From assembly GCF_008838325.1 (NCBI RefSeq), contig NZ_CP042829.1, positions 1,178,001 through 1,242,000 of the forward strand: a DNA stretch of 64,000 nt, written 5' to 3'. Below the pieces are notes generated by a model. It did not search any database, was not told the origin of the DNA, and worked only from the letters and a program-made list of their open reading frames with translations. Made by a program: the position numbers and the translations under genes. Positions 14,390 to 46,113 of this stretch are shown piece by piece; positions within the stretch are counted from its first letter, which is position 1, and each line of letters starts with the position of its first letter. This stretch comes from Tepidiforma bonchosmolovskayae. Its GTDB lineage: Bacteria; Chloroflexota; Dehalococcoidia; Tepidiformales; Tepidiformaceae.

Positions 14390-14881
14390 TCAGCCGGCTT
14401 CGCCGATATCGCGGTGGGTGGTTTCGAAGACGAGCTGGGTGAGGCGGTTGTGATGGCGGGCGAGCGCCATTTCGAGGAGGATGGCCTGCTCGCTGAGCTC
14501 AATCATCTTCCAGATATCGACGTCGCCGGGGGCGCTGGCCTCTTCGACGAGCTCGTCGATCTTGCGGCTGAAGAGTTCGTGCTCCTCGCGCTGCTGGTCG
14601 ACTTTGGGCAGGAGCCGGGGTTCGAGGGATTCCGCGCGGTTGAGGGGCGAATCGGGGAGTTCGGCGCTCCAGATGTGGTGGCGGATGGCCGAGCGGGCAT
14701 CGGCGACCGCCTGGCGGAAGGCGGCCTGCCAGGCCTGGGGCCGGCTGGCGTGGAAGGGGAGCCGGGCCGCCTGGCGGAGGAGCTCGCGCGCCTCCGCGAG
14801 GGGGTCGCGGATGGTGAAGATGGTGCCGTCCGGTTCGACCGGGGCAAAGGTGCCGGAATACGAGGTGGATGTCGTGGCCAT
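14390..14881 (-). CDS. Hemerythrin-like four-helix protein downstream of a c-di-AMP riboswitch
   Basis: The 163-residue protein is almost entirely alpha-helical. Its His/Glu/Asp spacing recalls HHE hemerythrins: ARSAIRHHIWSAE, ESLEPRLLPK, REEHELFSRKIDEL and LLEMALARHHNRLTQLVFE. If metal is bound it could sense or carry oxygen, NO or iron, but I cannot confirm that all ligands are present. It has a strong ribosome-binding site, AGGAGGT, six bases before ATG 14881. Its leader holds a predicted ydaO-yuaA riboswitch, so expression probably follows c-di-AMP level. The family assignment is tentative and the gene itself is well supported. Confidence 0.7.
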   Translation of the reverse strand: MATTSTSYSGTFAPVEPDGTIFTIRDPLAEARELLRQAARLPFHASRPQAWQAAFRQAVADARSAIRHHIWSAELPDSPLNRAESLEPRLLPKVDQQREEHELFSRKIDELVEEASAPGDVDIWKMIELSEQAILLEMALARHHNRLTQLVFETTHRDIGEAG

Positions 14882-14954
14882 TGCGTACCTCCTGTAGGCC
14901 GTCGTGGGGCCGTGCGCCGGCGATGGACCGGGGCGCGGCCTGTGCGGATTCCTG

Positions 14955-14977
14955 GGAGGGCCTGGGCGCTGCCCTCC
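14955..14977 (-). promoter_or_regulatory. Alternative hairpin of the riboswitch expression platform
   Basis: GGAGGGC and GCCCTCC form a 7-bp stem with a nine-base loop directly after the ydaO-like aptamer. The 5' arm overlaps the 3' strand of aptamer helix P1 (14967-14975). The two structures therefore exclude each other, as expected for a ligand-controlled switch. Confidence 0.5.
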
Positions 14978-15120
14978 GAACGCCTGCGGGGTTAGCTGAC
15001 GGGTTCGGCGTCGGAAGTCGCCTATGCGCGCGCTCGCGCAATACACCCCAAGGGTTGGTTCCCCCGCCCCCGCCAGCGGCGGGGTTCGGCACCAGCTACC
15101 GTACCACACAGGGTCAAGCG
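14966..15120 (-). ncRNA. Predicted c-di-AMP riboswitch (ydaO-yuaA class)
   Basis: Reading on the minus strand, the leader contains the class hallmarks in order: GTGCCGAACCC, GGGGGAACCA, TTGGGGTG and, near the 3' end, GCCGAACCCGTCAGCTAACC followed by GCAGGCG. The last block is the most conserved part of the ydaO-yuaA family. Helix CCGACGCC/GGCGTTCGG encloses it. A terminal P1 can form between 15110-15120 and 14967-14975. It lies between the end of cysS and the hemerythrin-like gene, all on the same strand. I could not run a covariance search. Confidence 0.8.
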
Positions 15121-43751: not shown

Positions 43752-43758
43752 GGCCGTG

Positions 43759-46113
43759 ATGCGACGGCGGCGGCTCACCCGGCTCCTTGCGCTCCGCGAA
43801 CTCCGGCTTCCCGCGGCGGCGCTTGGCGGCACCGCGCTGGGCGGCGCGCTCTTCCTCGCCGGGTACGGGCTGCTGGCCGATGCCGCCTGGGCCGCGACGG
43901 CGCTCGCCGGGCTGGTGCCCGCCCTGCGCGAGATGGCGGCCACCATCCGGGCCCGCCGCCCGGGCGTCGACGTGGTGGCCGTGCTCGCCATCGCTGGCGC
44001 GCTCGCCCTCGGCGAAACCCTCGCCGCGGCCGTCATCGGGGTGATGCTGGCCACCGGGCAGGCGCTCGAAACCTACGCCGGCGGGCGCGCCGAACGGGAG
44101 CTGACCGGTCTCCTGGCGCGGGCGCCGCGCCTGGCCCGCCGGATCGCGGGCGACGCCGTCGAGGTCGTCCCTGCCGAAGCGATCCTGCCCGGCGACCTCC
44201 TCCTCGTCGCCACAGGCGACACCGTACCCGTGGACGGCGCCGTCATCAGCGGGCAGGCGCTGCTCGACGAATCGGCGCTGACGGGCGAGAGCCGCCTCGT
44301 GGAGCGCCGGACCGGCGAGCGGGTTGCCTCCGGCGCGGTCAATGCCGGTTCGCCCTTCCGGCTGCGGGCCGTGGCGACGGCCGCAGAGAGCACGTATGCC
44401 GGCGTCATCCGCCTGGTCGAGGCGGCCCGCGCCTCGCGCTCGCCGATGACGCGGCTGGCCGACCGGTACGCGGGGCTCTTCGTCCCGGTGGTGCTGGTCA
44501 CGGCCGGGGCCGCCTGGGCGTGGAGCGGCGACCCGGTCCGGGGGCTGGCGGTGCTCGTCGTGGCGACGCCCTGCCCGCTCATCCTCGCTGCGCCGATTGC
44601 GATTGTGGCCGGCATCTCCAGGGCCGCCGGCCGCGGGGTGGTCATCAAGGGCGGCGGCGCCCTCGAAACGCTCGCACGGGTACGGGTGGTCTTCTTCGAC
44701 AAGACGGGCACGCTCACGGCCGGGATGCCGCGGCTCGAACGGGTCCTGGCGGCATGGGGCGGGATCGACGAAAACGAGGCGCTCCGGGTCGCCGCGAGCC
44801 TTGCCCAGGCCTCGGGCCACATCATGTCGGAGGCGCTCGTCCGGGCCGCGGCGGAGCGCGGGCTGCCGCTTTCGCTTCCGGGCGAGACGCGGGAAGAGCC
44901 GGGCATGGGCCTCGAAGGCACGGTGGAAGGCCGCCGCGTCCGTCTCGGCCGGCTCCCGTGGGCCTGCGCCGGCGAACCCTCGCCCGGGGCGCTGAGGCTG
45001 CAGCGGCGGGCGCTCCGCTATGGCGGTTCGGCCACGTTCCTCGCGATCGACGGGCACCTGGCGGCGGCGTTCGCCCTCGAAGACCCGGTGCGGCCCGAAT
45101 CGGGACGGGTGGTGCGGACGCTCCGGCGGCTCGGCATCCGCGAGACGATCATGCTCACGGGTGACCACCCGGGCCTCGCCGAGATGGTCGGCGCCTCGCT
45201 CGGCATCGACCGGGTGCTCGCCGGACTGACGCCCGCGGAGAAGGTGGAGCAGGTGGCGGCGCGGGCCGGCGCCCCGGCCGCGATGGTCGGCGACGGCATC
45301 AACGATGCGCCCGCGCTGGCCGCGGCCGATGCCGGCATCGCCATGGGAGCGCGCGGCGCGGCCGCCGCCGCCGAGGCCGCCGATGGGGTGATCATGGTCG
45401 ACCGGCTGGACCGGCTGGTCGAGGCGCTGCTCGTCGCCCGGGCTGCCCGCCGGATCGCCGTCGAGAGCATCGTGCTGGGGATGGGCCTCTCCTTCGCGGC
45501 GATGGGCTTCGCGGCGGCCGGGCTGATCCCGCCCGCGGCGGGCGCGCTGCTGCAGGAGGGCATCGATGTGGCGGCGATCCTCAACGCCCTGCGGGTGCTG
45601 GGCTGGCAGCCGCCGCGGCCGGGGAAGGCGGTGCCCCCGGAGGTCTTCGCGGCCCTGCTCGAGGGACACCGGGAGCTGGCGGCGGTCGCCGCGGAGCTGC
45701 GCACCCTGGCGATGGAGCTGGACGCCCTGCCGCCGGGCAGCCTCGCTGAGCGGGCGGCCGCGGCGGTCCGCCGCCTCGAAGCGACCGTCGTGCCGCACGA
45801 GCGGCTCGAGGAGCGGGACGTCTACCCCGCGCTCGCCGCGGCGCTCCCCGGGCCCGACCCGCTTGCCGCGCACAGCCGGACGCAGGCAGAGCTCTTCCGG
45901 CTGGTCCGCCAGCTCGAGCGGCTGGCCGCCGACCTCGGCGCCGGCGAGGGCGCGCTCGACCCGGAGGACATCGCCGACCTGCGGCAGCTGCTCATCGGCA
46001 TCGCCACGCTCCTGCGGCTCAACCTCGCGCAGGAGGAGGACCTCGCCGCCCTGCTCGGGTGGGAGGGCGCCGAGACTGGCGCACCTGCCCCTGCCGGCGC
46101 TCCCGCGCGGTAG
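43759..46113 (+). CDS. P1B-type metal-transporting ATPase with C-terminal hemerythrin-like domain
   Basis: The 784-residue pump has TPCPL (metal-binding C272) in a transmembrane helix, DKTGTLT with the phosphorylated D314, TGDHP and GDGINDAPAL near residue 512. The T-P-C motif and a C-terminal helical domain from H637 onward, with HERLEERDVYP and HSRTQAELFRL, match the P1B-5 class, thought to export Ni/Co/Fe. The nucleotide-domain motif normally SxHPL reads SGHIMSEAL. The soluble N-terminal metal-binding domain is lacking. The gene's TAG stop forms part of the next gene's promoter hexamer. Confidence 0.88.
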   Translation: MRRRRLTRLLALRELRLPAAALGGTALGGALFLAGYGLLADAAWAATALAGLVPALREMAATIRARRPGVDVVAVLAIAGALALGETLAAAVIGVMLATGQALETYAGGRAERELTGLLARAPRLARRIAGDAVEVVPAEAILPGDLLLVATGDTVPVDGAVISGQALLDESALTGESRLVERRTGERVASGAVNAGSPFRLRAVATAAESTYAGVIRLVEAARASRSPMTRLADRYAGLFVPVVLVTAGAAWAWSGDPVRGLAVLVVATPCPLILAAPIAIVAGISRAAGRGVVIKGGGALETLARVRVVFFDKTGTLTAGMPRLERVLAAWGGIDENEALRVAASLAQASGHIMSEALVRAAAERGLPLSLPGETREEPGMGLEGTVEGRRVRLGRLPWACAGEPSPGALRLQRRALRYGGSATFLAIDGHLAAAFALEDPVRPESGRVVRTLRRLGIRETIMLTGDHPGLAEMVGASLGIDRVLAGLTPAEKVEQVAARAGAPAAMVGDGINDAPALAAADAGIAMGARGAAAAAEAADGVIMVDRLDRLVEALLVARAARRIAVESIVLGMGLSFAAMGFAAAGLIPPAAGALLQEGIDVAAILNALRVLGWQPPRPGKAVPPEVFAALLEGHRELAAVAAELRTLAMELDALPPGSLAERAAAAVRRLEATVVPHERLEERDVYPALAAALPGPDPLAAHSRTQAELFRLVRQLERLAADLGAGEGALDPEDIADLRQLLIGIATLLRLNLAQEEDLAALLGWEGAETGAPAPAGAPAR

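Follow-up and report, generated by a model that had tools for sequence, protein, structure and literature searches.

We analysed a stretch of 64,000 nucleotides from Tepidiforma bonchosmolovskayae, called the window below. On its minus strand, a gene for a 163 amino acid long protein (P0001) follows a leader that belongs, with near certainty, to the ydaO/yuaA class of c-di-AMP riboswitches (Rfam: RF00379). The aptamer starts 68 nt past the end of an upstream cysS-like open reading frame and ends 85 nt upstream of the P0001 start codon (ATG at 14881). In Table 1 we list the features of the locus.

Table 1. Features of the riboswitch leader and of the gene behind it (window coordinates)
Feature	Position	Strand	Basis
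Promoter -10-like TACGGT (TAnnnT), 13 nt upstream of P1	15098..15103	-	family leader comparison
c-di-AMP (ydaO/yuaA) riboswitch aptamer	14967..15101	-	RF00379, cmscan
P1 5' strand	15088..15091	-	cmscan alignment
Pseudoknot loop strand CUUCCGA	15011..15017	-	pairs with 14979-14973; covariation across family leaders
P1 3' strand	14981..14984	-	cmscan alignment
Pseudoknot 3' strand UCGGAGG, also Shine-Dalgarno-like	14973..14979	-	pairs with 15017-15011
Expression-platform hairpin GGAGGGC(9)GCCCUCC	14955..14977	-	leader sequence and folding
Shine-Dalgarno AGGAGG	14888..14893	-	sequence; conserved in homologues
Gene of a 163 amino acid four-helix-bundle protein (P0001), probably hemerythrin-related by transitive homology	14390..14881	-	open reading frame, homologues, model

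The leader matches RF00379 over the full length of the model (positions 1-134, not truncated) with 83.1 bits (E-value 7.8e-18; gathering cut-off, 38 bits), and this is the single above-threshold Rfam match of cmscan in the whole window. An earlier note on this DNA had proposed a ydaO-yuaA riboswitch here from core motifs; the covariance search agrees, and the quoted motifs are all located in the leader: GTCAGCTAACC at 15000-14990, the flanking CGAACCC and GCAGGCG, GGGGAACC and TTGGGGTG. The conserved core GCCGAACCCGUCAGCUAACCCCGCAGGC fits the RF00379 consensus and most of the core of the crystallised aptamer. With the class the leader shares, besides the full-length match, the core GUCAGCUAACC, the P1 stem and a pseudoknot between a loop and the 3' strand. 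This pseudoknot has been described for the crystallised 108-nt ydaO aptamer, whose sequence contains an equivalent 3' strand (PMC5393176); the loop/3'-strand complementarity of our leader is also visible in that sequence. Binding of the ligand is predicted from class membership.

Is the ligand available? The Tepidiforma genome (2.75 Mb) has seven RF00379 riboswitches and a gene for a CdaA-type diadenylate cyclase (271 amino acids; PF02457, E-value 2.4e-43), so c-di-AMP is very likely made in the host cell. Transcription of the leader probably starts from a promoter of its own, near the 5' end of the aptamer. In 28 of 54 family leaders a TAnnnT motif precedes P1 by 11-14 nt, compared with 0-3 leaders in other upstream windows, and the motif is found in all 12 listed leaders of the 163 amino acid gene family. 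The local copy, TACGGT, is not a consensus sigma-70 site, and a scan of the leader for sigma-70 consensus promoters gave no match.

The P0001 family is, on solid grounds, a new and conserved client of a known riboswitch class. Homologues of P0001 are present in 31 of 61 related genomes; the nearest named relative among the genomes compared is Tepidiforma flava (83% protein identity). For 12 of the 13 closest homologues, the start codon follows an RF00379 riboswitch at a distance of 47-94 nt. The distance is 242-307 nt at L021, L022, L025, L026 and L035, and 610 nt at L024. Because the related genomes have only about five riboswitches per 3 Mb, chance is excluded as the source of this linkage. 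The gene had been called an unusual client for the class, and we agree: in contrast to known members of the class, the client is not a K+ transporter, an osmolyte system or a cell-wall hydrolase. The gene occurs without an adjacent riboswitch at L020, a close homologue, and in the homologues of genus g13. In a phylum-wide sample, relatives of P0001 are found in just one other family (L142, L144), also without a riboswitch. At L024, the riboswitch is followed by a gene of approximately 150 amino acids (L002 type) and then by the P0001 homologue in an operon-like order, which suggests that the two client proteins work together. A second paralogue in the Tepidiforma genome (G000:C1:1422275-1422700; L145) has no riboswitch nearby and lacks the His residues of helices C and D.

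The 3' end of the aptamer and the expression platform compete for the same nucleotides. The pseudoknot pairs covary in the 58 leaders of the family (CUUCCGA/UCGGAGG, CUUCGAA/UUCGAAG, CUCCCAA/UUGGGAG, CUCCCU/AGGGAG and others). The 5' arm of the hairpin has 5 nt in common with the pseudoknot 3' strand, and an overlap of at least 3 nt recurs in 50 of the 58 leaders. We calculated how often permuted partners reach the observed pairing scores, a test that is inflated by the relatedness of the sequences: the pseudoknot partners outscore 5000 of 5000 permutations, and for the hairpin 19 of 5000 reach the observed score. Since the strand UCGGAGG is common to both, hairpin and pseudoknot are mutually exclusive. 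The earlier note had paired this hairpin against the P1 3' strand and saw in it a plausible on/off mechanism. The hairpin (GGAGGGC/GCCCTCC) exists and the two exclusive structures make such a mechanism plausible, but the competitor is the pseudoknot strand and not P1. Pairing of the P1 3' strand (GGCG) with CGCC at 14968-14965 is possible in this leader; we dropped it since it is absent in L012-L014.

The 3' arm of the hairpin (14961-14955) is a potential anti-Shine-Dalgarno sequence; 10 of 12 leaders have CCUCC there, the complement of the Shine-Dalgarno. In the ligand-free state, GGAGGGC would pair with the downstream GCCCUCC and leave the Shine-Dalgarno freer (ON). Binding of c-di-AMP would make the aptamer close the pseudoknot with UCGGAGG; the hairpin would then be blocked and its CCUCC arm released to pair with AGGAGG, turning translation OFF. 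We infer ligand binding and the OFF polarity from the riboswitch class, and sequestration of the Shine-Dalgarno from the pairing just described. A translational OFF switch is the most likely mode of control because the CCUCC arm can pair with the Shine-Dalgarno and a search of the leader for intrinsic terminators found no terminator-like site, a further difference from the ydaO/yuaA class. When 12 leaders of this gene are folded, the mean Shine-Dalgarno accessibility is 0.41 unmasked, 0.31 with the pseudoknot strand masked to mimic the bound state, and 0.42 with a mask on other windows. The predicted folds pair CCUCC with GGAGG in about half of these leaders; L010, L011, L017 and L018 show no sequestration, and L019 shows the reverse.

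A related arrangement is found in the nlpC riboswitch of Corynebacterium glutamicum: c-di-AMP represses translation of that gene, and an exchange of CTCC/GGAG pairings has been hypothesised (PMC9960051). Neither leader has a canonical terminator, both have an upstream GGAG and a CUCC arm complementary to a GGAG ribosome-binding site, and translational OFF control, here inferred, would be shared as well. The two differ in phylum and client; moreover, the upstream GGAG in our leaders is the pseudoknot strand of the aptamer, and the exchange could be compared in 58 leaders. The Shine-Dalgarno exchange, which for nlpC is so far only a hypothesis, can be studied by comparison in this natural set of leaders.

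The modest shift in accessibility and its unevenness among leaders would also fit a riboswitch that works by Rho-dependent or another non-intrinsic form of transcription attenuation instead of hiding the Shine-Dalgarno. For a riboswitch of Streptomyces coelicolor, reduced transcript or terminated products have been reported (PMC9960051). Within the Tepidiforma genome, a sibling riboswitch (L006; G000:C1:943469-943601) precedes a gene for a 72 amino acid zinc-ribbon protein, and its leader contains a stem with a U7 tract after it. Transcriptional control therefore probably exists in this genome, and transcriptional and translational versions of the riboswitch may coexist there. We nevertheless consider attenuation unlikely at this locus: the leader is short, has no terminator-like site, and carries the hairpin arm complementary to the Shine-Dalgarno that recurs in most of the 12 leaders.

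What does the riboswitch control? The AlphaFold2 model of P0001 is a four-helix bundle (pLDDT 83.6, pTM 0.76) with helices at residues 29-39, 48-73, 88-116 and 123-155. Searches of Pfam and NCBIfam give no above-cut-off match for P0001, including the hemerythrin HHE domain (PF01814), and NCBIfam offers no consistent family. A profile of the P0001 subgroup has no match among solved structures (best E-value 0.27), Foldseek with the model has no PDB match at E-value ≤ 0.001, and no relative is found in the viral collection. VIA-align lists bundles of the FAT, vinculin and cytochrome-b562 types, with no hemerythrin named among the matches shown, an outcome that weighs neither for nor against a relation to it. 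One candidate family, Bestrophin_2, was dropped as a sub-cut-off helical match (best E-value 6.5e-4, 5 of 16 members; P0001, 14.4 bits against a cut-off of 27).

A path to hemerythrin leads through intermediate homologues. The subgroup of P0001 (g1) and another one, g2, are homologues by profile comparison with hhalign (probability 98%, E-value 1e-14). The g2 member L031 matches nearly the full PF01814 domain with an E-value of 5e-5, at 24.2 bits just under the cut-off of 25.3, and the g2 profile aligns with hemerythrin at 73% probability, against 22% for a reversed control. The g1 profile itself scores below its reversed control. We compared P0001 with the ligand pattern of hemerythrin, i.e., His on helix A, HxxxE on helix B, His on helix C and HxxxE/D on helix D. 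Three of the His positions, those of helices B, C and D, align with His69, His101 and His143 of P0001. Across 24 diverse homologues His69 never changes and His101 hardly ever does. P0001 and its close homologues have another residue in place of the helix-A His and lack both +4 carboxylates of the HxxxE motifs. Together, these comparisons make hemerythrin ancestry probable but indirect, do not support a standard diiron site and leave a three-His metal site possible.

The earlier note had gone further and predicted a hemerythrin-like four-helix protein that links c-di-AMP to oxygen, NO or iron. The predicted four-helix fold, the near-threshold score of L031, the alignment of g2 with hemerythrin and the three aligned His residues are what a functional diiron client would have in its favour. 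Yet handling of O2, NO or iron is unsupported because only these three His remain of the hemerythrin ligands, and P0001 has no significant match to the Pfam hemerythrin family; we regard such a client as very unlikely. One may also ask whether the bundle is related to hemerythrin at all. The top VIA matches, FAT and vinculin-tail bundles with Z-scores of about 12-13, are at a level that helical bundles reach through shape alone, and g1 alone aligns with hemerythrin no better than its reversed version does. An unrelated bundle with an incidental His pattern is unlikely, however, given the clear homology of g1 to g2, which does reach hemerythrin, and the conservation of His69 and His101.

The reading we prefer, with a probability of roughly 0.6, is that a c-di-AMP riboswitch represses translation of a small four-helix protein, conserved in the family, of probable hemerythrin descent and without the standard diiron ligands. 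Our best guess is that the cell makes P0001 at low c-di-AMP and that this small protein binds metal or serves as a scaffold. A search of open-licence papers found none that combines "c-di-AMP riboswitch" with "hemerythrin", nor one that combines Tepidiforma with a riboswitch.

We are interested in the other clients of this riboswitch in the Tepidiformaceae. Among the clients of 58 riboswitches, the recurrent orthologous groups are a zinc-ribbon protein of approximately 60 amino acids (15 clients), the P0001 family (14), an MFS transporter (8), a 72 amino acid zinc-ribbon protein (7), an uncharacterised protein of approximately 160 amino acids (6) and a SulP permease (3, recognised by eye in the sequences), with the reservation that client start codons were picked automatically and small groups may be incomplete. 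A glycosyltransferase-like protein is also found among the clients. The commonest client (L072-L091, L004) has an aromatic and basic N-terminus (WWRR), a zinc ribbon (CPEC...CPGCH) and a C-terminal end PEWRYG/FG. It is tempting to hypothesize, tentatively and with more doubt than confidence, that the c-di-AMP regulon of this family differs from the known ones in being made up of two small zinc-ribbon families, MFS and SulP transporters, the protein of approximately 160 amino acids and a hemerythrin-derived bundle. An osmotic and cell-wall messenger would then have come to control metal-site proteins, by way of a pseudoknot strand resembling a Shine-Dalgarno sequence. The comparison outlines a c-di-AMP regulon for a little-studied lineage of Chloroflexota and ties uncharacterised clients to a known signal.

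A true hemerythrin domain is also encoded in the window. The frame of a P-type metal-transporting ATPase (43756-46113, plus strand, 785 amino acids) has it at its C-terminus (45652-46041; PF01814, 44 bits, above the cut-off).
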